Assembly: GCA_002839705.1 (NCBI GenBank)
Contig: PGYO01000001.1
Coordinates: forward strand, 62,001 to 126,000
Length of the DNA stretch: 64,000 nt
DNA from: Methanobacteriales archaeon HGW-Methanobacteriales-1
Lineage (GTDB): Archaea > Methanobacteriota > Methanobacteria > Methanobacteriales > Methanobacteriaceae
Reading direction: 5' to 3'
This document shows, piece by piece, positions 1-12,063 of this stretch. How positions within the stretch are numbered: position 1 is the stretch's first letter; every line of letters begins with the position of its first letter. Under the pieces are notes generated by a model, which saw only the letters and a program-made list of their open reading frames with translations, made no database searches and was not told the DNA's origin. Made by a program: the position numbers and the translations under genes.

Positions 1-795
1 GGATTGAAAAAAGATCCGGAAGCGGCGGGAGAACGAAAAAGAGGCACAGTTACTTTTAGAAACACCGGAAAAGGTGTGGGCAAAGTTTATATTTACCGTG
101 AGGATAGGGTTGCCACTCCATCACATAATATTATTGGAAATGTTGAGCAAGGCATACAACTTATGGATATAGCCAAAAAAGACGATGAAGTCACTTTTAA
201 AATTGAACCAGAACGTATTATGGCTCTGGCCATGACTCAAAAAGAAGCAGAGGCCTTCCTAAAGATGAGAGGAATTGAACATATTCGTGATGGGTTAACT
301 GATGATGATGCATTGGTAGTTAGTCAGGAACCTCAATTTACCATGGATATTGTTAAAGAAAAGAAAGTAAAAACTTTAGGAATTAATAAAAATAATTTAA
401 TAGAAGTTGAATTCAATAAAGAAGCTCCACGTTCTACATGGTACTTTAAAAAGATTTCTGGTTTGATTGATGCTCCTTTAGGATCTATAAAAGTGCATTT
501 TGCTTTTCCTGGAATGAAGGTAATAATGTTTAAAGGTGATTCTAAAGAAGCAAAAGGATTGATTCCCGAGAGTAACCCTCAAAAATGTGTTCATAAGGGA
601 GAATTGGGAATAACCAACATGTCCAGAAGGCATATTGGTATAATTGGGGTTAGATTTGAAGATAATGACGAATTTGGCCCGACAGGAGAACCATTTAATG
701 GTACTAATATTATTGGATCAATAACTAAAGGCTTAGAAAATTTAGAGAAATTTAAAGAGGGGGATTTAGTATATGTCGCCGAAAGAAAGTCCTGA
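1..795 (+). CDS. mmp3: Methanogenesis marker protein 3 (Mmp3), 5'-truncated by window edge
   Basis: The reading frame is open from the first base, so this is the C-terminal part (about 264 residues) of a protein that in this family is roughly 500 residues long; the TTG at position 4 is not a real start. The sequence matches the UPF0288/methanogenesis marker 3 family (the [21 protein letters not shown] segment, the late [14 protein letters not shown] segment). Known: Mmp3 is restricted to methanogens and related MCR-bearing archaea and was found in the ATP-dependent MCR activation complex. It overlaps mmp6 by 23 bases, indicating translational coupling in one operon. Nothing suggests a pseudogene. 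Confidence 0.9.
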
Positions 796-1264
796 AGTTT
801 GTAAAGATGACCATACTCGAACCAGAATGATTATTCTTGGTCCTGGAGCCACGATTAGTCAGAGTGAGTTGACCCAAAATTTGCACATGATGGAACTTCC
901 TTTGACCATAAAATCAACCTGTTATGGGGCCATGGTTTATGGAGATCAGGAATATGTCGATCAGGCTGTTGAAAGAGCTAGAAAACTGGATCCATATAAT
1001 ATATTTACCAAAGATCGTGGTTTCCCACCAGGTGACCCCAGGAGATGCAGGGGCCATAGGGGGGCTGCAAGAGAAGGTTATCATCAACTGGAAAAGGAAT
1101 TTAAATTACTGGGCTTTGTTGGTGAAGCTTTAAAAAAGCCGCAAAAAGTTGAAATTGAGGAACCAGAAAAAGTTTCGGTGGATGATTTCCGCAAAATAGT
1201 TGAAAATTCCTATTCCAAATCTAAATCATCAGATAAATCATCAAAAATTCAAGATGAGGGCTAA
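773..1264 (+). CDS. mmp6: Methanogenesis marker protein 6 (Mmp6)
   Basis: The 163-residue product matches the methanogenesis marker 6 family, with the conserved core [17 protein letters not shown] near residue 16 and the Gly/Arg-rich [20 protein letters not shown] segment around residue 84. The ATG at 773 is preceded by GAGGGGGAT at good spacing, inside the end of mmp3. The last 40 or so residues are Ser/Lys-rich and probably disordered. The function is not established biochemically; by context and phylogenetic restriction it belongs with maturation or activation of methyl-coenzyme M reductase. The next gene follows after 2 bases. Confidence 0.88.
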
Positions 1265-1266
1265 AA

Positions 1267-1650
1267 ATGAAAATTACTCCATCATCAACTGGAAAAGATA
1301 TTGAAAGCATGGCACTGGCCATTCACGAACTGATTAATAACCTGCCCCTTACTATGCGAACTAAAAATTCAAAAGGAGTACGCATAGAAGAAGGTGAAGT
1401 TATTGATTACGAATATACTGGTCCTGTTTTAGAAAAAGTTTTAGAAACTGGACAAACCATACATGGGGAGCCTGAATCTGGACCTTATCAGGGAATGCCA
1501 CTGGTAGTTGTCCCTATAAAAGAAAATAATGAAACTATTGCTGCTATTGGTATAGTTGACATTACCAAAGGCCTTTTCAGTGATATGATTGAGATTTCTC
1601 GCCGACCAGAACCTATTAAAAATGAACCTTCCAAGGGGGAATTCTATTGA
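1267..1650 (+). CDS. DUF2111 family protein in the marker cluster
   Basis: A 127-residue soluble protein resembling the archaeal DUF2111 family. The middle (about residues 60-105) reads like a small ligand-binding or roadblock/GAF-like fold: [24 protein letters not shown] followed by [12 protein letters not shown], a pattern seen in small sensory beta-alpha domains. It sits 2 bases after mmp6 and overlaps the TTG start of mmp5 by 4 bases, so it is translated with the MCR marker genes. No catalytic motif is visible. By position it is a candidate accessory factor for MCR activation; that is inference. Confidence 0.75.
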
Positions 1651-2093
1651 AAGTAGCTATATTTCCACCAAATTCACTCATACTCGCAGACTTAATCGAA
1701 AGAAGAGGCCATAAGGCTTTAGTCTTACAAAATGAAATAAGAAAAAAAGTTAAAGACCCAGAAATTGACTCACCACCTTTCAACCTCACTGAAGAAGATC
1801 CTATTAAAGGCCTTAAATACGCGGCTATTGAGGTCCCATCTGGTGTCAGAGGAAGGATGTCCATTTTTGGGCCATTAATAGAAGAGGCAGAAGCTGCCAT
1901 TATTATGGATGAGGCTCCTTTTGGATTTGGATGTATTGGATGTGCCAGAACCAATGAATTATGTGTATTCTATCTTAGAAAAAGAGGAATACCTACTTTG
2001 GAACTGAAATACCCTAAAACCAAAGATGAAACAACTGAACTTGTAAATAAGATTAACACCTTTTTAGACTCACTGGAGGAAGACAATGGTTAA
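1647..2093 (+). CDS. mmp5: Methanogenesis marker protein 5 (Mmp5)
   Basis: A 148-residue product with the hallmark of methanogenesis marker 5: an N-terminal [18 protein letters not shown] segment and a conserved cysteine pair in [13 protein letters not shown] near residue 92, followed by a Rossmann-like C-terminus. The start is TTG at 1647, supported by the upstream AAGGGGGA and by the 4-base overlap with the previous stop. The overlap with mmp15 is 8 bases. The CxxC motif could bind a metal or cluster; this is not shown experimentally to my knowledge. Confidence 0.87.
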
Positions 2094-3321
2094 AATAGCC
2101 CAAATTTCGTGTGGAACTGAGTACAGTGGTGTTCAGAAAGAAATAGAAAAAGCAGCCAGTACATTTGGTGCTGAAATTATAATTCCTGAGACTGATATTG
2201 ATTATATTGATGAAGCTTATGAAAAATTTGGTTTTAACTGTGCCAGTTCAGGTATTAGATTAATGATTGCCCGGGCCATGTCTATTGTGGAAGGAAAAAG
2301 TGATGCCGATGCTGTTTTTATTGCTACTTGTTTTAGATGTGCGGAAGGGGCACTGGTTAGAAATGAGGTTCGGAGATTTATTCAACAGAACACTCGCCTA
2401 CCAGTGGTAACTTATTCTTTCACTGAGAGAACCAAGGCAGATGAGTTATTTATCCGAATGGAGGCACTTTCCACTATCGTAGCCCGAAAGAGTATATTGG
2501 CTCGTGAGAAACAAGAAGGCCTAACTCTAGGAGTAGATTCTGGTTCTACCACCACTAAAGTTGTTTTAATGGAAAATAATGAGGTTATTGGGACAGGATG
2601 GCTACCAACAACTGATGTTATTGGCTGTACTAATGATGGAATTGCCCAGGCCATGGAAGGTACAGGCTATAGCATGGATGATATTGAGGGTATGGGTGTA
2701 ACTGGCTACGGCCGACTAACCATTGGAAAGAAAATGGAGGCGGAATTGATTCAGGAAGAGCTTTCTGTCAATTCTAAAGGCGCGGTTTATTTAGCAGGCC
2801 ATCAAAAAGGAGAAGCTACGGTTTTAGATATTGGTGGAATGGATAATAAAGTGATTACTGTTAATGATGGTATTCCAGATAACTTCACCATGGGTGGAAT
2901 ATGTGCTGGAGCATCAGGTCGTTTCTTAGAAATCACTGCCCGTAGATTAGGGGCTGACATCAGTGAACTAGGCCCTATGGCCATAAAAGGAAACTACAAA
3001 AATGCACTATTGAATAGTTACTGTATTGTATTCGGTATTCAGGATTTGGTCACTTCTCTTGCCGCAGGGAGCACTAAGGAAGATGTTGCTGCAGCAGCAT
3101 GTCATTCTGTAGCAGAACAGGTTTATGAGCAGCAACTTCAAGAAATAGATGTTCGAGAACCTCTTATTCAGGTAGGTGGAACCTCTTTAATTGATGGGCT
3201 GGTGGAAGCTGTTAGTGATGTCCTTGGAGGAATTGATGTTATTGTCCCAGAATATTCTCAATATATTGGTGCTGTAGGGTCTGCGCTTCTTGTTTCTGGA
3301 TTAGGTAAACGCCAAGAATAG
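2086..3321 (+). CDS. mmp15: Methanogenesis marker protein 15 (Mmp15), BadF/BcrA-type ATPase
   Basis: A 411-residue ASKHA-fold ATPase. The phosphate-1 loop [14 protein letters not shown] lies near residue 147, a second nucleotide site [12 protein letters not shown] near residue 246, and the family's cluster-binding segment [13 protein letters not shown] near residue 272. An additional cysteine motif, CFRCAEG, is near residue 85 in the N-terminal extension. This family (BadF/BadG/HgdC activators) uses ATP hydrolysis at a subunit-bridging iron-sulfur cluster to drive low-potential electron transfer. In the MCR context, an ATP-driven reductive role in lowering nickel in F430 is a natural inference, but the activation ATPase known biochemically is component A2. 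Confidence 0.9.
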
Positions 3322-3380
3322 TTATTAGCTAGAATTGTGAATTATTATTTAATATCTGTCAAATTTAAAGAGGACTTTGA

Positions 3381-3947
3381 ATGTTAGTAGAATGTTACGA
3401 TACTAAAGGGGCTGCAGTTTACGAGTTGATAATAAAACAAGTAACTCATGATTTGCAAATTAATAGGTCAATTAAAGACATGAGGGTATTTATTGACCCT
3501 CGAGAACCAGTATTTATAATTGCAGTCATGGTGGCCAAAACAACTCAACCCGTTTTAATTGAAGACCTTGCTACTTATTCTTATGAAGTAGAAGAAGATA
3601 AGACCACTATTCGCATTAAAGATGAAAATTATTTGCCTAATCTTCTTAAAAAATTATGGGACATTGAAGGCCGGGAGAAAATTCAACAGCCTAGCCGGTT
3701 TGAAATAATTATTGAAAACCCTTCAACTGATATTAAAGGAATGGTTGTGGTGGACCCAGTTGAAAATCTAAAAAGAAAAATCTATGATGCTATTTTTAGA
3801 ATCCTTCCTGAAGGTTTTAGAGTTATAAAAGATCTTTCAGAAGATAATATTGTTGCTATGGCTTGTACCGATGAACTTTTGAGGGACGAATGGGTAGAAA
3901 AATGTCGTGAGATGATTAATGATTTAAAAACTTCTAATTCATCTTAA
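3381..3947 (+). CDS. mmp17: Methanogenesis marker protein 17 (Mmp17)
   Basis: A 188-residue protein of the methanogenesis marker 17 family (segments VECYDTKGAAVYELIIKQV at the N-terminus and FRILPEGFRVIKDLSEDNIV late). Mmp17 is a component of the MCR activation complex. It is the last gene of the marker operon; a 59-base spacer separates it from mmp15, with its own ribosome binding site AGAGGA about 8 bases before the ATG. No transmembrane segment or cysteine cluster is visible. The downstream 240 bases carry a palindrome and the nifB promoter. Confidence 0.88.
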   Translation: MLVECYDTKGAAVYELIIKQVTHDLQINRSIKDMRVFIDPREPVFIIAVMVAKTTQPVLIEDLATYSYEVEEDKTTIRIKDENYLPNLLKKLWDIEGREKIQQPSRFEIIIENPSTDIKGMVVVDPVENLKRKIYDAIFRILPEGFRVIKDLSEDNIVAMACTDELLRDEWVEKCREMINDLKTSNSS

Positions 3948-4006
3948 TAATCTATTTAACTCAGTATTCATTAATCTGTATTTAATTTATATCAAAGAAG
4001 TTTAAT

Positions 4007-4026
4007 AATATAACATCTGTTATATT
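4007..4026. promoter_or_regulatory. Perfect 9-2-9 palindrome between mmp17 and nifB
   Basis: AATATAACA-TC-TGTTATATT is a perfect inverted repeat, 60 bases after mmp17 and about 165 bases upstream of nifB. It could be a regulator site for nifB, or a weak 3' hairpin for the marker operon. No canonical NrpR operator (GGAA-N6-TTCC) was seen in this intergenic region. Confidence 0.4.
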
Positions 4027-4138
4027 TGCCATTAGATATTTATTAAAATTATTTATATTATGAGTGATAAAATATTATTTGCTATTATACGAATAGTTTT
4101 ATTATAATCGAACAAATTTAATTAATATCTAAGTTGAA

Positions 4139-4147
4139 ATTTTATAA
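4139..4147 (+). promoter_or_regulatory. Probable TATA box for nifB
   Basis: ATTTTATAA lies about 45-50 bases upstream of the nifB ATG, which would give a short leader of about 20-25 bases containing the GAGGTCATCATA ribosome binding site. The assignment is by pattern only in a very AT-rich background. Confidence 0.4.
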
Positions 4148-4189
4148 ATTGAAATAAAATATTGAAAATAAAAATAAGAGGTCATCATA

Positions 4190-5059
4190 ATGGATGAAAC
4201 AGAAAAACAAGCAAGATTTGCTCACGTAACTAAAGCTCACCCATGTTTTAATGAAAAAATGCACGATAAAGTGGGAAGGATTCATTTACCTATCGCTCCA
4301 CGTTGTAATATCCACTGCAATTTCTGTACCCGGGAACTTAATGAATGTGAAATCAGGCCTGGTGTGGCTGCCAGAATAATGACTGCAGATGATGCAGTAG
4401 AACACGTGGAAAAAGTCACCGGAGAAATGCCCATTTCGGTTATTGGTGTAGCCGGACCAGGAGATGCCCTGGCCAACGAAGATACCTTCAAATTCTTTAA
4501 AAAAGCTAGTGAAGAGTTTCCAGATCTTATAAAATGTATGAGTACCAATGGTTTGCTCTTAGCCGATAAAGCAGATGAACTGGCAGACTTAAATATTAAC
4601 ACGATCACCGTAACCGTGAATGCAGTAGATCCTCAAATTGGAAAAGAAATTTACTCCCATGTAGTTTATGATGGCCAGGTTTATGAAGGAGAAGAGGCCT
4701 TTAAATTACTCTCTAAAAACCAACTGGATGGTATTGAAAAGATCACTGAGAAAGGTATCATCGTTAAGGTGAACAGTGTCTTAATCCCGGGATTAAATGA
4801 TGAACACATCGCGGATATTGCCCGAGAGGTCAAAAAAAGAGGGGCTTCTTTAATGAATGTTATCCCCTTAATTCCACTGGGAAAAATGAAAGATTTCTCT
4901 AGGCCGACTTGTGCCCAGATTGAAAAAGTTAGGGACGAAGTGGAAGAGATAATTCCTATATTCCGGGCATGTACTCAGTGCCGGGCCGATGCCTATGGAA
5001 TTCCAGGTAAAAAGAGTGAAGATAAGCATTTAGATATGACTCCGGCCAGTCATTACTAA
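4190..5059 (+). CDS. nifB: NifB, radical SAM FeMo-cofactor-type cluster synthase (short archaeal form)
   Basis: The 289-residue product has the radical SAM motif Cx3Cx2C at residues 39, 43 and 46 (RCNIHCNFCTREL), the NifB entry motif HPCFNEKMHDKVGRIHLPIA just before it, GVAGPGDALAN (SAM binding), and a C-terminal CxxC at residues 261/264. NifB fuses two Fe4S4 clusters with carbide insertion to make the Fe8S9C NifB-co (L-cluster). This is the short stand-alone form without the NifX-like domain. The window holds no other nif gene, and the neighbour upstream is the MCR activation operon. The start follows AAGAGGTCATCATA. Confidence 0.93.
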   Translation: MDETEKQARFAHVTKAHPCFNEKMHDKVGRIHLPIAPRCNIHCNFCTRELNECEIRPGVAARIMTADDAVEHVEKVTGEMPISVIGVAGPGDALANEDTFKFFKKASEEFPDLIKCMSTNGLLLADKADELADLNINTITVTVNAVDPQIGKEIYSHVVYDGQVYEGEEAFKLLSKNQLDGIEKITEKGIIVKVNSVLIPGLNDEHIADIAREVKKRGASLMNVIPLIPLGKMKDFSRPTCAQIEKVRDEVEEIIPIFRACTQCRADAYGIPGKKSEDKHLDMTPASHY

Positions 5060-5138
5060 ACTAAATCTGTTTTTATTTCTATTTTTACTTTAATTAATTT
5101 TTTTATTAGGCAATATCAAGTTATTTAATACTGGAGTT

Positions 5139-5882
5139 TTATAACTCAACTTCTAACAAACTCGTAATTTCTTTTTTCAGATTTAAAAACTCAGGTGCTG
5201 AACGGTCGCGAATCCTCTCCAGGCCAATATTAAAAGTTTTGATTATTTTTCCAGGGCTATGGCTTAAAACAACCACTCGATCGGCCAGAAAAATAGCTTC
5301 ATCCACATTATGAGTTACGAATATAACTGTTTTCTGTTCTTCACTCCAAATGCGTACCAGTTCTTCTTGAAGTTTGTGTCTGGTCTGAACATCCAGAGCG
5401 GAAAATGGTTCATCCATTAAAAGAACTTGGGGGTCATTGACCAGAGAACGGGCAATAGCAACCCTTTGTTTCATGCCTCCGGATAATTCTTTAGGGAAAC
5501 TGTTCTCGTACTGGGATAAACCAACCATTTTCAAGTATTTTCTGGCTTTCTGGTATCTTTCTTCTTCTTCCAGCCCTTTTACTTCTAACCCAAAGGCTAC
5601 ATTATCCAATACATTACGCCATGGAAATAATGAGTACTGTTGGAATACATAGCCTCTTTCTCGGCTGGGGCCAGTTATTTTAGCTTCACCCTCAAGTATA
5701 TGACCTTCGGTGGGGAAGTCCAATCCAGCAATCATACGAAGTAGGGTGGTTTTTCCACAACCTGAGGGGCCCACAATACACAGAAATTCTCCTTTATTCA
5801 CATTTAAATTGATATTTTGGAGGCTCTTATGTTCTTTTTCTTCTTGAATGAAACTTTTAGTAATATTTTCTAAGGTTATCAC
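5139..5882 (-). CDS. ABC importer ATPase, nitrate/sulfonate/taurine (SsuB/TauB) type
   Basis: A 247-residue ATP-binding subunit with Walker A GPSGCGKTT (residues 38-46), a Q-loop FQQYSLFPW, the signature LSGGMKQRV, Walker B LLMDEPFSALD and the switch His in FVTHNVDEA. These features and the length fit the NitT/TauT (SsuB, TauB, NrtD) family. Its start overlaps the permease stop by 4 bases. It is the last gene of a three-gene importer operon reading away from mtnA and converging on nifB. The substrate cannot be read from this subunit. Confidence 0.88.
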   Translation of the reverse strand: MITLENITKSFIQEEKEHKSLQNINLNVNKGEFLCIVGPSGCGKTTLLRMIAGLDFPTEGHILEGEAKITGPSRERGYVFQQYSLFPWRNVLDNVAFGLEVKGLEEEERYQKARKYLKMVGLSQYENSFPKELSGGMKQRVAIARSLVNDPQVLLMDEPFSALDVQTRHKLQEELVRIWSEEQKTVIFVTHNVDEAIFLADRVVVLSHSPGKIIKTFNIGLERIRDRSAPEFLNLKKEITSLLEVEL

Positions 5883-6616
5883 CAGCTCACCTCCTTCTCT
5901 ATTCTGCTGAAAATATAATCAGCACCTAATCCAATAACTCCAATGGCTAGCATTCCCACTATGGCACTTCCAGTATCTAGCATACTGGTGGAGGTGAATA
6001 TGAGGTATCCCAAACCGCTATTGGATCCTATCATCTCTGCAGCCACAGTACACATTAATCCCACACCCACACCCACTTTCAATCCAGTTACAATGCTGGG
6101 CAGAGAAGCCGGAACGGCCACTTTTCGCAGTACTTGACTATTGCTGGCACCTAATGTGTAGGCGGACTCCAATAATACTTTATCTACTCTTTTAACTCCA
6201 TCCATGGTGTTTATGAGTATGGGGAAAACGCTACCTACAAATATAATAAAAATTGCTGATTCCAGGCCCACACCAAACCATAAAATGGCAAAGGGTATCC
6301 AAGCAATGGGAGGAATAGGGCGAAGAATACCTACCATCAGACTGGAAAAGTCCTTCACTGTATTGGACCACCCCATTAAAATTCCTAAGGGGATGCCTAC
6401 CAGTGCAGAAACTGTTAAACCCAACACCACTCTCATTAAGGTTAATGAAGTGTCTTGAACTAATTGTCCATTCATTAAAAGGGTTTCAAAGGATTGTAGA
6501 ACTTCAGATGGACTGGGAAGAAAATATGATGGTATCAATCCGGTGAAAGTTGTTAGAATGGCCCAAATTATAATAACTGATACAGGTAATATTAGTGAAA
6601 TAAATATTTTTCTCAT
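5879..6616 (-). CDS. ABC importer permease, SsuC/TauC type
   Basis: A 245-residue inner-membrane permease with about six transmembrane helices and the conserved EAA loop ([26 protein letters not shown] spans it; key residues EA-x3-GA-x9-P). The length and motif fit the BPD permease subunits of nitrate/sulfonate/taurine importers. The gene lies 50 bases after the binding protein and overlaps the ATPase gene by 4 bases, so the three are one transcription unit. Confidence 0.87.
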
Positions 6617-6666
6617 TTTTTACCGCCTAGCAAGATTTAATAACTTAAATAAGATTTAAATAAAGT

Positions 6667-7623
6667 TTAATTACCTAAAAATTGTGTATCAAATATATCA
6701 TTTGCTGTAAGGGTTGTATTCAAATATCCTAAATTGTTTTCTATTTTAGCAAATTTTAAAACGTTATTCTGAAATGACTTATTAACTGAGGAGACAAATG
6801 TGATGTGTTGCAAGGATAAGGCCTCAATTTCAATATTGGTTGTTAATTCCTGATCAATAATATTTGCAGTCTCGTTAGGGTGTGTATTAACATATTCAGT
6901 TGTTTGTTGATGAATTTTAAGGAATTTATCTAGTTCTTGAGGGTGTTCTTTAATGAAACTCTCGCTGGCAATTATAACACAACAGGGATGGTCTTTTATA
7001 ATATCGTTTGAGTAGATTAACACATTTCCAATACCTTCGTAAGGTGCTAATGATACAAAAGGTTCATAGGATATGTATGCATCAACTTTATGGGCTGCCA
7101 GGGATGAAGGAATGTTATAAACATTTATTGATATTAAATCTACATCTTCCGAGGTGATATTGTATTTTTGCAGCTCATAAAGTAATAGGACTTGTTGGAT
7201 GGAGCTAACACCTGGTGTGGCTATTGATTTACCCTTCAAATCCGCAGGACTAGTTATGGTGGAGTTGGGTTCAACCACAATTCCACTACCCACCATATTA
7301 ACTGATCCCACAACCTTGATTGGAATTCCTTTACTTATTCCCTGCATGGCCGGTGTTATTCCAACGTAACCAATATCCACATCACCACTGGCCACGGCAT
7401 CTACAATATTAGAACCAGAATTTATTTGTACAGTTTTAACATTCAAACCATTGTTTTCATAGGTTTTATTATGTTTGGCCACCAAAAGAGCAGCGCTGTG
7501 ATCTGTGGGTAGATATCCTACTTCAATCACATTCTGATCCTCCGGAGCAAAAAAAGTCCAAAGGCTACCTGCTATTAGTAACAAAATAAAAATGAACAGA
7601 ATTAACAGTTTATAGTGCTTCAT
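6667..7623 (-). CDS. ABC importer substrate-binding protein, SsuA/NMT1-like
   Basis: A 318-residue protein with an N-terminal hydrophobic segment (residues 5-26) acting as signal peptide or membrane anchor; there is no lipobox cysteine. The mature part begins with VIEVGYLPTDHSAALLVAKH and contains VASGDVDIGYVG, the typical layout of SsuA/TauA/NMT1-like binding proteins. It is the first gene of the operon. Candidates for the ligand include sulfonates such as coenzyme M, taurine, or a thiamine-precursor-like compound; the sequence alone does not decide. Confidence 0.83.
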   Translation of the reverse strand: MKHYKLLILFIFILLLIAGSLWTFFAPEDQNVIEVGYLPTDHSAALLVAKHNKTYENNGLNVKTVQINSGSNIVDAVASGDVDIGYVGITPAMQGISKGIPIKVVGSVNMVGSGIVVEPNSTITSPADLKGKSIATPGVSSIQQVLLLYELQKYNITSEDVDLISINVYNIPSSLAAHKVDAYISYEPFVSLAPYEGIGNVLIYSNDIIKDHPCCVIIASESFIKEHPQELDKFLKIHQQTTEYVNTHPNETANIIDQELTTNIEIEALSLQHITFVSSVNKSFQNNVLKFAKIENNLGYLNTTLTANDIFDTQFLGN

Positions 7624-7853
7624 AATATCTTGATAAATTTAATTTAAATCAATATACTGTTTTATATTGGATTATTTAGATTTAAACTATTATTAATTTT
7701 ATCCATCAATTTCAATCAGCATAAAGTCTTAAGATAATAAAAATATAATTTATAGAAATTTAAATAAATATTATATTAAAATATTTATATTAAAACATAT
7801 CCGATATAATTAAGCAGAAATATCATTTAAAAGATTTAAGGGGTTAATCCAAT

Positions 7854-8783
7854 ATGAAAACCATGCTCTGGGAAGATAATCAACTTTTACTTATTGATCA
7901 AACCAAATTACCTGATGAATTAACTTATTTCACCTGTAAAAATTATCAAGACGTTATCCATGCCATTAAAACCATGGTGGTGAGGGGTGCACCGGCCATT
8001 GGTGTGGCTGCTGCCTTTGGAGTGGCATTAGCAGATCTAGCGGGTGAAGATCTGGAAAAAGCCGCAGACGAAATAAAAAGTTCCAGGCCAACAGCAGTAA
8101 ACTTATTCTGGGCCGTGGATCGGGTCATGGCCTCAGATTTCCCCTTAGAAGAAGCGGTAAAAATGTATCATGAAGATATTGATACCAATCGGGCTATGGG
8201 AAAACACGGTGCTTCAATAATAGATGATGGGGACACAATCTTAACTCATTGTAATGCTGGGGCTCTGGCCTGTGTGGATTATGGAACGGCACTGGGTGTT
8301 ATAAGGGCTGCTTACGAGGAGGGTAAAAAAATCAATGTTCTATGTGATGAAACCCGCCCTTTAGGCCAGGGAGCCAGACTAAGTGTCTGGGAAATGCAAC
8401 AGGAGAACATTCCAGTTAAGTTAATTGTGGATAGTGCTGCGGGTTACTTGATGCAACAGAGAGAAGTTGATAAAATAGTTATCGGGGCCGATAGAGTGGC
8501 CAAAGGCGGCGTAGCCAATAAAATCGGTTCTTTAATGGTGGCCCTGGCCGCCAAGCGATTCAATGTCCCATTTTATGTGGCCGCTCCCCTGAGTACCTTT
8601 GATAGTGAAAATTCCATTTATGATGTGGAAATTGAAGAGCGAGGGCCTGAAGAGGTAATTAACTATGGAAATTGTCGTATAACTCCTAAAGGAACTGAAG
8701 TAAGAAATCCGGCCTTTGATATTGTTCCTAGTGACCTTATTGCTGGAATAATCACTGAGAATGGGATTTTAGATCCATTATAA
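7854..8783 (+). CDS. mtnA: S-methyl-5-thioribose-1-phosphate isomerase family protein
   Basis: The 309-residue product belongs to the MtnA/eIF2B-alpha-like isomerase family: the phosphate-binding KTMVVRGAPAIG near residue 40, the catalytic-cysteine region THCNAGALAC near residue 136, the Asp region VIGADRVAKGGVANKIGS near residue 213, and the C-terminal AFDIVPSDLIAGIITE. MtnA converts methylthioribose-1-P to methylthioribulose-1-P in methionine salvage; in methanogens it takes part in salvage of methylthioadenosine or deoxyadenosine products. The ribosome binding site AAGGGGTTAATCC precedes the ATG. The gene stands alone, divergent from the ABC importer. Confidence 0.88.
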   Translation: MKTMLWEDNQLLLIDQTKLPDELTYFTCKNYQDVIHAIKTMVVRGAPAIGVAAAFGVALADLAGEDLEKAADEIKSSRPTAVNLFWAVDRVMASDFPLEEAVKMYHEDIDTNRAMGKHGASIIDDGDTILTHCNAGALACVDYGTALGVIRAAYEEGKKINVLCDETRPLGQGARLSVWEMQQENIPVKLIVDSAAGYLMQQREVDKIVIGADRVAKGGVANKIGSLMVALAAKRFNVPFYVAAPLSTFDSENSIYDVEIEERGPEEVINYGNCRITPKGTEVRNPAFDIVPSDLIAGIITENGILDPL

Positions 8784-8930
8784 TTTATAAAAAATAATTA
8801 TTTAATTTATTTAATTCAATGTTTTATTCTTATTTTAGTTTTTATGGATATTATTTCCTTAATTTTTATTTTAAAATAAAAAAAATATTTAAAATAATCT
8901 TTTTATTTTAGAATAATTATTTGGAATTAA

Positions 8931-9959
8931 TTAATTTATCCTAGCATCAATCCCCATATGCCACACACCCGGGCTCCGGGACTTAACATGCCTCTTATTC
9001 AAAATTTCAACTTCTCGAGGCCCAGCAGCATCAATTATCCGTTGAATAGGTGTATCAAAATCAGAAGAGAATTCATAGTAATTAATAATCCCTCCAGGCT
9101 TAATTAACTCCATGGCCTTATCTAAAAACTCATAGGCCGTTCCAGGAAGATTCATTATCACTCTATCTGCAGAAATATCATGTTCTGATAAGACTTGACA
9201 TACATCACCTAAAATTGGAACTACCTTTTCTTCTACGTGATTAAGTTCCATATTCTTTTTTAAATAATGAATTGCATCGGGATTAATATCAATGGCATAA
9301 ATCAAGACTTCCCTACGCCGTGAAATATCCATAACAAAAGGTCCTACTCCACAAAACATGTCCACAATTATTTCACCGTCTTTGACCTGCTGAGCCACTC
9401 TTTCTCGCTCCGTGGCAAGTCGAGGGCTGAAATAAACTTTCTTAACATCCAGCATTATTCGTGAGCCGTATTCTACATGTATGGTCTCTGAAATGTCCTC
9501 CCCTGCCAGATGCTCCAGTTCCCGGATACGGGTAACGCCTTTTATCTCGCTTTTTTTCATGAAAACTGCTTTTCGTTTAGTGAAATCAAGGGCAGCCTGC
9601 CCAATGGTATGTTTATGTTCTTCAAGCTTTTCTGGAATCTCCAGGATCACCACATCTCCAATGATATCAAAGGACTTCTTTATCTCCTGAATTTCATCCT
9701 CATCAATTTTACCATTTAAAAAGTCCATGAAACTTTTAGGGCCTCTTTTTTGTATTTCAAATTCTATTTCTACAATATCTAAATGACCGATTCCAGATTC
9801 ATTTAACTTTTCAGAATTTATCTTTATTTCATCCATTAATGGTAAATAAACGAATTCAGAGTCCCTTTTTATTTTAAGGCCGAGATCTATAATAGATTCT
9901 TCCATTAGAATTTTACGGACATGGTTGGCCTCATTTTTGGGAACTTTAATGCATTTCAT
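8931..9959 (-). CDS. trm5: tRNA (guanine37-N1)-methyltransferase Trm5
   Basis: A 342-residue class I SAM methyltransferase of the Trm5/TYW2 family. The N-terminal third resembles the Trm5 D1 domain, the middle carries GDVVILEIPE and TRIRELEHLAG, and the Rossmann domain has VDMFCGVGPFVMDISRR (motif I, about residue 197) and the NLPGTAYEFLD catalytic motif. NLP fits m1G37 formation. The enzyme is needed for reading-frame maintenance. It is divergent from dphB. Confidence 0.9.
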   Translation of the reverse strand: MKCIKVPKNEANHVRKILMEESIIDLGLKIKRDSEFVYLPLMDEIKINSEKLNESGIGHLDIVEIEFEIQKRGPKSFMDFLNGKIDEDEIQEIKKSFDIIGDVVILEIPEKLEEHKHTIGQAALDFTKRKAVFMKKSEIKGVTRIRELEHLAGEDISETIHVEYGSRIMLDVKKVYFSPRLATERERVAQQVKDGEIIVDMFCGVGPFVMDISRRREVLIYAIDINPDAIHYLKKNMELNHVEEKVVPILGDVCQVLSEHDISADRVIMNLPGTAYEFLDKAMELIKPGGIINYYEFSSDFDTPIQRIIDAAGPREVEILNKRHVKSRSPGVWHMGIDARIN

Positions 9960-10072
9960 ATGATTCCTCTTCTAAGTAATATAATATAAGAATGTTTAAT
10001 TTATCAGAATATTATATCAAAAATCCTATCCTAAATATATTTATAATCTTCATGGTATAATTTAGTAAATAA

Positions 10073-10086
10073 TCATCATATGATGA
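10073..10086. promoter_or_regulatory. 14-bp perfect palindrome between trm5 and dphB
   Basis: TCATCATATGATGA is self-complementary and lies in the 282-base divergent spacer, 114 bases from trm5 and about 155 from dphB. It may be a regulator site; there is no second copy in the spacer. Confidence 0.3.
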
Positions 10087-10241
10087 ATTTGCTTTAAGAT
10101 AATGATTGTCATTTATTTATGTAATATATATCTCAATTTGAACTGTATATTTAAGAATATCAAAGTTTTAGTAATTATCAAATGAATTTAAAATTAACAT
10201 AATTAGTGAAATTATAGATTATGCCATTAAAAGGTGATTCA

Positions 10242-11021
10242 ATGCTTTATTTTATTGGTTTAGGACTTTATGATGAAAAAGATGTTTCTGTTAAAGGATT
10301 AGAAGCTTTAAAGTCTGCAGATGAGGTTTATGCTGAGTTTTATACGGCAGGACTTTTTGGAACATCCATCTCTGCATTTGAGAAGTTATTAGAAAGAGAA
10401 GTTAAAATTTTGACTAGAGAAGAGGTTGAGGAAGAGATAATTCCTATAAAAGCGGCAGAAAGCAAAAATATTGCTTTTTTAATTGCTGGAGATCCATTAA
10501 TCGCCACTACTCACACAGATATGATGATGGAAGCTAAAAAAAGAGGAATAGAAACTCAAGTTATTCACTCTTCATCCATACTATCTGCCGCGCCAGGAAT
10601 ATCTGGCTTGCAGGCCTATAAATTTGGTAAAGTAACCACGGTGCCATTCACAGAGGAAAATTTCTTCCCTCATTCTCCTTACCTGGCCATTAAAAACAAC
10701 ATGGAGCAAGATGCCCATACTTTGGTATTATTGGACATCCGGGCCCATGAAAACAGGTACATGACTGTTAACCAAGGCCTAAAATATCTCATGAAAGTTG
10801 AAAATGATAGACAAGAAGGAGTACTGGGTGATGATACTCTAGTAGTGGCTATAGTCCGTGCTGGTTCTCCACAACCTCTGGTGAGGGCGGATAAAATAAA
10901 AAATTTGATTAAGGAGGATTTTGGAGGGCCATTGCATTGCTTAATAATTCCTTCTAAAATGCATTTCATGGAAGCCGAATATCTAGTGGCCATGGCCGGT
11001 GCTCCTGAGGAGATATTGTAA
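10242..11021 (+). CDS. dphB: Diphthine synthase
   Basis: The product starts MLYFIGLGLYDEKDVSVKG, the signature start of archaeal Dph5/DphB, and continues with the tetrapyrrole-methylase-fold motifs VYAEFYT, FLIAGDPLIATTH and HSSSILSAAPGISGLQ. It trimethylates the modified histidine of elongation factor 2 to diphthine. An in-frame ATG exists at 10221, but the ATG at 10242 is preferred: AAGGTGAT lies just upstream of it, and family members begin at this methionine (259 residues). Confidence 0.93.
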   Translation: MLYFIGLGLYDEKDVSVKGLEALKSADEVYAEFYTAGLFGTSISAFEKLLEREVKILTREEVEEEIIPIKAAESKNIAFLIAGDPLIATTHTDMMMEAKKRGIETQVIHSSSILSAAPGISGLQAYKFGKVTTVPFTEENFFPHSPYLAIKNNMEQDAHTLVLLDIRAHENRYMTVNQGLKYLMKVENDRQEGVLGDDTLVVAIVRAGSPQPLVRADKIKNLIKEDFGGPLHCLIIPSKMHFMEAEYLVAMAGAPEEIL

Positions 11022-11125
11022 AATTTGTGAATATGTTTAGATGGGGCTAAATTTACTAATTTAGTAAATGACTGCTTAAGCCAATGGATGGATGATTATT
11101 TCTCAACTACAAAATTTTTCTGAAG

Positions 11126-11172
11126 GAAATCACATTTTTCTATTTTCATTTATATGGTGATTTCTATTTTTT
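11126..11172 (+). terminator. Hairpin followed by T-run downstream of dphB
   Basis: GAAATCAC (11126-11133) pairs with GTGATTTC (11157-11164) across a 23-base loop and is followed by a run of T residues. It could end the dphB transcript; the long loop makes it a weak call. Confidence 0.35.
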
Positions 11173-11253
11173 TGATTAATAACTAAGCCTCCTTTTTAAT
11201 AAAGATGCTTGATTTTGAGTTAATGATAATTGTTAATTTATTCGTGTTTTATA

Positions 11254-11307
11254 GTTCAAATATTTTTGAAAAAGTGATCATTAATCACATATTTTAAATA
11301 TTTGAAC
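11254..11307. promoter_or_regulatory. Nested 12-bp inverted repeat upstream of padR gene
   Basis: GTTCAAATATTT (11254-11265) and AAATATTTGAAC (11296-11307) form a perfect 12-bp inverted repeat. The enclosed 30 bases contain a second small palindrome GTGAT-CATTA-ATCAC. Its place directly before a PadR-type operator suggests either a terminator/attenuator or a second regulator site. Confidence 0.45.
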
Positions 11308-11311
11308 CTAT

Positions 11312-11329
11312 TATGTTAAAAATAACATA
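11312..11329. promoter_or_regulatory. PadR-type operator (ATGT-N8-ACAT)
   Basis: TATGTTA-AAAA-TAACATA is a perfect 7-4-7 palindrome containing ATGT-N8-ACAT, the consensus bound by PadR-family regulators. It ends 20 bases before the GTG start of the PadR gene, so autorepression is the likely mode. The match to consensus is seen directly; binding is inferred. Confidence 0.65.
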
Positions 11330-11349
11330 TGTTAAAAGTAACCCTTTAA

Positions 11350-11886
11350 GTGATGGCAATGGTTAATTCAGAACTTATAATTTTAGGCATGATTTACATC
11401 AATCCAAGCCATGGATATGCTCTTAAAAAAAATGTAAAGAACTATTTTGGGAATCCATACTTCAAATTAAACAACAACATACTCTATTCAACGCTCAGAA
11501 AACTGGAAAAAAACAGTTTTATCATTGGAAAAGAAATTAACAGCGAAAAAATGAATAAAAAAGTATACAGCATTACAGAAAATGGAAAAAAACATTTGCT
11601 AGAACTGGTAGCTACCCCACCGAAAATTGATATTGATGAATTTGATTTTAAAGTCCAAGCGGCATTTTTTGATCTCATATCAATGGAAAATCGTAAAAAA
11701 GTGGTTAGACCAATATATGATTCTAAATTAAAGATGTATCAAGAGGCATTAGAAAAAAAGAAAGAGTTAGGTTCTGAAATTCCGCCAATTTCATTAATTG
11801 TACTGGAATATGCTATCAAAGAATTGAAGATTTCTCTGGAATTTTATGAAAAATTAATAGGAATGAATTATAACGAAATAATTTGA
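11350..11886 (+). CDS. PadR family transcriptional regulator
   Basis: A 178-residue protein with an N-terminal winged helix typical of PadR (ELIILGMIYINPSHGYALKK, then LYSTLRKLEKNSFI and KKVYSITENGKKHL) and a longer C-terminal helical domain (subfamily with Vir-type C-terminus). GTG 11350, ATG 11353 and ATG 11359 are all possible starts. PadR proteins usually repress exporter or stress genes, and this one precedes an ABC-2 exporter pair. A consensus operator lies just upstream. Confidence 0.87.
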   Translation: MMAMVNSELIILGMIYINPSHGYALKKNVKNYFGNPYFKLNNNILYSTLRKLEKNSFIIGKEINSEKMNKKVYSITENGKKHLLELVATPPKIDIDEFDFKVQAAFFDLISMENRKKVVRPIYDSKLKMYQEALEKKKELGSEIPPISLIVLEYAIKELKISLEFYEKLIGMNYNEII

Positions 11887-12063
11887 TATTATTCGAATAA
11901 ATTTGATTAATGAAGATCATATTAAAATTGTTCAAATTAATTAAAGTTGTATAATTAAGTTTATTATTAAATGTGTATTCAAAAACTTGTCATTACTTCT
12001 TAGAAATAGTAAAATCGATTATTAATCATAAGTTATTAACAAAGGATGATTAGAGGAGATAGA

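Follow-up and report, generated by a model that had tools for sequence, protein, structure and literature searches.

The window analyzed here is a 64,000-nucleotide stretch of the genome of Methanobacteriales archaeon HGW-Methanobacteriales-1 (the host), lying on contig C1. It opens within a cluster of MCR-activation genes, with the following features:

4–795, + strand: mmp3, C-terminal part, MCR activation complex subunit (TIGR03268, 375 bits; gene start upstream of the window, near G000:C1:61260)
773–1264, + strand: mmp6 (TIGR03272)
1267–1650, + strand: DUF2111 protein, member of the mmp cluster (PF09884, E 9e-36)
1647–2093, + strand: mmp5 (TIGR03271)
2086–3321, + strand: mmp15, with an acyl-CoA dehydratase activase-type domain (TIGR03286; TIGR00241, 333 bits)
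3381–3947, + strand: mmp17, MCR activation complex subunit (TIGR03291, 214 bits; relative of 8S7V chain G, E 9.5e-20)
4088–4113, + strand: conserved non-coding element TACGAATAGTTTTATTATAATCGAAC in the mmp17-nifB gap (five aligned sequences, genera g1 and g16)
4190–5059, + strand: nifB, radical SAM NifB-cofactor (L-cluster) synthase (motifs, profile and PDB-chain alignment)

nifB closes the mmp3-mmp6-DUF2111-mmp5-mmp15-mmp17 cluster, and the range 3381–5059 holds mmp17 and nifB together. The gene coordinates agree with the initial annotation, which placed nifB 242 bases after mmp17 on the same strand. Its statement that the window carries no other nif gene holds for nifD/K/E/N-type genes, whose matches are all on contigs C7 and C13. 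ABC transporter genes on the - strand follow 3' of nifB, and then mtnA. This three-gene transporter (5139–7623, - strand) is sulfonate/taurine/SaoABC-like and is also present in G049 and G078. No Rfam match was found in positions 1–12000 of the window.

By its sequence, the host gene encodes a radical SAM enzyme, a NifB of the usual archaeal kind. Residues 5–289 align with 7JMB/7BI7, NifB chains of the Methanobacteriales type with solved structures (E 4e-163), and the protein carries the CX3CX2C radical SAM motif as CNIHCNFC (39–46) together with HPCFN (17–21) and CTQCRADAYG (261–270). The match to TIGR01290 covers profile positions 6–282 of 441 and scores 307 bits, under the model's 344-bit cut-off, because archaeal NifB proteins are missing the NifX-like C-terminus (PMC5715403). 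Methanothermobacter NifB (7BI7, 7JMB, 7JMA) is of the same family and alike in architecture, with all motif cysteines kept; the host protein differs from it only in the genomic context at issue. The radical SAM and auxiliary motif cysteines are invariant across 35 NifBs from diazotrophs and non-diazotrophs. Separate clades of nitrogenase and MCR NifB were sought and rejected, as the tree of these 35 proteins intermixes diazotrophs and non-diazotrophs. Functional NifB homologues have been reported from methanogens (cited in PMC12176620), and synthesis of the [8Fe-9S-C] L-cluster is predicted for the host enzyme.

The host nif operon, nifH-nifI1-nifI2-nifD-nifK-nifE-nifN-nifX, lies on contig C7 and has no nifB (nifI1 and nifI2 were called from position and translated sequence, nifX from a match under the model cut-off). 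The host is thus probably a diazotroph, and as its genome holds a single nifB, the same NifB must serve nitrogenase too. An NrpR operator, GGAATCATACTTCC, stands 54 bp before host nifH. Consistent with the initial annotation, which had seen no NrpR operator upstream of nifB, GGAA-N6-TTCC does not occur with up to one mismatch in positions 3322–4189, before nifB. It is likewise absent from the roughly 1.5 kb upstream of host mmp3 (L069), and no NrpR operator was found in the mmp17-nifB gaps of 26 loci. Among other diazotrophs examined, several have an exact operator upstream of nifH but not every one does, the stretches read in G048, G017 and G098 having none. At nifB, then, both marks of an NrpR-type nif regulon are missing: the operator is absent and nifHDKEN is on another contig. 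Co-regulation of nifB with nif, which the initial annotation named as evidence against its own proposal, is not seen as far as sequence tells. These observations bear on the alternative that nifB is primarily a nitrogen-fixation gene, located here by chance and co-regulated with nif by other means. The demand of the host nitrogenase for NifB speaks for this reading, but the operator found at nifH and not at nifB, the lack of an exact operator at relocated nifB genes of a diazotrophic genus and the retention of nifB in genomes without nifD (both described below) make it highly improbable.

The AT-rich element TACGAATAGTTTTATTATAATCGAAC in the 242-bp gap is common to close relatives (g1, g16) and is a possible promoter or operator region for nifB. 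Given the length of the gap and the conservation of the element, nifB probably has its own promoter in the host. The only exact copy in the host genome is the one before nifB, and one other place matches at three mismatches; a shared operator regulon acting through this element was rejected on these counts. The element carries two CGAA half-sites, and some other genera likewise have TTCG/CGAA-containing stretches ahead of nifB.

We surveyed 150 Methanobacteriales genomes for the mmp17-nifB linkage, a survey confined to the class Methanobacteria; widening the search to the phylum brought in two more genomes, one of which is not from the order. Both genes are present in 140 genomes and on one contig in 131, and in 130 of these 131 nifB lies 3' of mmp17 on the same strand with at most about 620 bp between the matches. 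The adjacency that the initial annotation expected in related genomes is therefore kept almost throughout, and it holds in 114 of the 117 non-diazotrophs that have both genes. The sole interruption is in G135, where three ORFs lie in a gap of 3.4 kb. In nine genomes the two genes are on different contigs, and in at least two of these (G049, G058) they lie at contig ends. Five other splits, all in diazotrophic genomes of genus g13 (G097, G065, G098, G090, G091), look like real relocation. The three g13 nifB loci read contain no mmp gene, have different neighbors in each case and show no exact NrpR operator, and mmp17 of G097 sits in mid-contig. Since g13 has lost the linkage, it is not a requirement.

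As a control for background gene order, we used the unrelated downstream neighbor mtnA, which lies less than 700 bp from nifB in 44 of 115 same-contig genomes and at 700 bp or more in 71. The difference from 130/131 gives p ~8e-30 in a Fisher test, although the genomes share kinship, so the counts are not independent events and this figure is not a true probability. The adjacency is beyond chance, and the mtnA control shows that mmp17 and nifB are linked more closely than background gene order would predict. The genes mmp15 and mmp17 lie within 700 bp of each other in 140 of 141 genomes, and nifB is therefore linked as tightly as a true member of the mmp cluster. One further arrangement was noted at G081:C117:84005-85759, where nifB and mtnA share a 605-amino-acid open frame that could be a fusion, a sequence error or an effect of masking. 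An apparent 1990-amino-acid nifB fusion in G011 was rejected as masked sequence.

The linkage could also be no more than ancestral gene order that has been conserved and carries no functional meaning, with NifB having some other housekeeping client. In many genera nifB is likewise followed by mtnA, trm5 and dph5, and some of the linkage is therefore inherited gene order. However, the nifB-mtnA side has often taken up insertions (71/115 at 700 bp or more), whereas the mmp17-nifB side has essentially none (1/131); mtnA is displaced in several genera (including g1, g3, g6, g10 and g16), and mmp17-nifB is uninterrupted in those examined. The pair also outlasts changes within the mmp cluster itself, remaining together in G150 though mmp3, mmp6, mmp5 and mmp15 are gone from the neighborhood, in G056 with mmp15 displaced and in G045 with mmp3 and mmp6 displaced. 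In four lineages (G038, G017, G003/G012 and G150) mmp17 and nifB overlap or are 2–6 bp apart (the 2-bp gap of G150 was read from the printed sequence), so the two genes look operonic. We consider gene order alone an unlikely explanation on this evidence.

nifB is retained far beyond nitrogenase. It is present in 141 of 150 Methanobacteriales genomes and in 89 of 90 of good quality, as against 23/150 and 20/90 for nifD-type genes, with the nifD survey run at E 1e-60, a threshold that would also miss the D subunit of Mar-like systems. The single good genome without a nifB match, G020, has N sequence at the expected place; its apparent loss of nifB, mmp17, mmp15 and mtnA was rejected, as the 10 kb beside mmp3 reads N and is masked. 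Two control methanogen genomes both match nifB. A NifB-like radical SAM protein was among the methanogen-specific genes listed in 2011 (PMC3087415), and NifB is reported to be essential in methanogens, even those without nitrogenase genes (PMC12176620). The stand-alone nifB of Methanocaldococcus sp. FS406-22 is comparable, being single, outside the nif cluster and without a nif operator, and a second function was suspected for it; its description mentions no mmp17 link, whereas the linkage in Methanobacteriales is conserved across an order (PMC8809328). The housekeeping role that the initial annotation assigned to NifB is supported by the mmp linkage and by retention without nifD, but not as a pure one: in the host, itself a probable diazotroph, NifB is probably dual-use.

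Another L-cluster enzyme, nitrogenase-like or methylthio-alkane-reductase-like, might be the client of nifB in place of MCR activation. Some Methanosphaera-type genomes do carry a Mar-like D-K-H cluster. Four genomes of this type (g4, the genus that includes G020) have a second nifB, which in three lies 3' of the nitrogenase-like D-K-H cluster (L075:2169-7177 in G021, L076:6313-11193 in G067 and L077:943-5949 in G102). In the one genome tested, G021, the D subunit best matches 9FMG (E 4e-69; among the other nitrogenase chains the best E is 7e-29), a chain identified as methylthio-alkane reductase (PMC12552129), and the clusters resemble a Mar-type system, here in methanogens that lack nitrogenase. 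The mmp17-linked copy persists beside the Mar-like cluster and the second nifB, so a separate NifB can accompany another L-cluster enzyme while the mmp17-linked gene stays. MarB/NifB of methylthio-alkane reductase systems is likewise a NifB-type protein for a non-nitrogenase L-cluster enzyme, but it is assigned to the reductase system (PMC12552129), whereas host nifB lies with MCR-activation genes. A nitrogenase alpha-type gene went undetected in 127/150 genomes at E 1e-60, a weak point in the argument given that Mar-like D subunits would escape the same threshold. Taken together, we regard a different L-cluster client as very improbable.

The MCR activation complex, a candidate client, has known L-cluster-like centers. 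The Methanobacteriales locus can be compared with the M. maripaludis complex, in which three [8Fe-9S-C] L-cluster-like centers are carried on McrC/Mmp7, one of them at the Mmp7-Mmp17 interface (PMC12176620; PDB 8S7V), in agreement with the initial annotation. The cluster ligands are McrC H49/H118; McrC C55/C12, perhaps with Mmp7 C90; and Mmp7 C143/H84, and the authors of the structure consider that NifB probably makes these clusters (PMC12176620). Mmp3, Mmp7, Mmp17 and McrC are also found in the host. All seven ligands (McrC C12, H49, C55 and H118; Mmp7 H84, C90 and C143) are kept in the host and in five relatives, three of which have no nifD match or fall outside the nifD survey. Mmp5, Mmp6, Mmp15, the DUF2111 protein and NifB are encoded at the host locus but are not named among the components of the purified M. 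maripaludis complex.

We propose, with a probability of roughly 0.82, that the core role of NifB is to provide L-clusters for the MCR activation complex and that nitrogenase is a second customer in diazotrophs. NifB would build the [8Fe-9S-C] L-cluster as a functional member of the MCR-activation gene cluster, and these clusters would go to McrC and Mmp7, which would pass low-potential electrons to F430. The same single NifB of the host would also feed the nitrogenase cofactor pathway via NifEN. Such a dual role would place nifB outside the NrpR-repressed nif operon, with expression at all times when the cell requires MCR. Two of these steps, the transfer of clusters to McrC/Mmp7 and the constitutive expression of nifB, are ones that we infer. 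A bolder extension, which we put forward tentatively and think doubtful as a whole, is that mmp3-mmp6-DUF2111-mmp5-mmp15-mmp17-nifB encodes an assembly line for the activation complex, in which Mmp5, Mmp6, Mmp15 and the DUF2111 protein would deliver, insert or recharge NifB-made L-clusters and Mmp15, through its ATP-dependent activase-type domain, would act in a NifH- or NifEN-like way. Mmp15, which has this domain and is not named in the purified complex, could serve as an electron donor driven by ATP or as a factor that handles clusters.

The supply of L-clusters to the MCR activation complex by NifB has been proposed before (PMC12176620), so the suggestion to this effect in the initial annotation gains support here but is not new. 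The support comes from the linkage, the mtnA control and the operator contrast, from which the function is deduced. What is new is the order-wide linkage, the mtnA control and the regulatory contrast; the chemistry and the idea are published. We found no description of the mmp17-nifB linkage in the literature searched, with most subscription journals outside that search.

Before L-clusters were observed in the MCR activation complex, there was no explanation for the retention of NifB by non-nitrogen-fixing methanogens. A near-unbroken linkage across the order, separate from the nif operon in diazotrophs as well, provides independent genetic support for a connection between NifB and MCR, and it names the neighbors mmp5, mmp6, mmp15 and the DUF2111 gene as candidate cluster-delivery factors.
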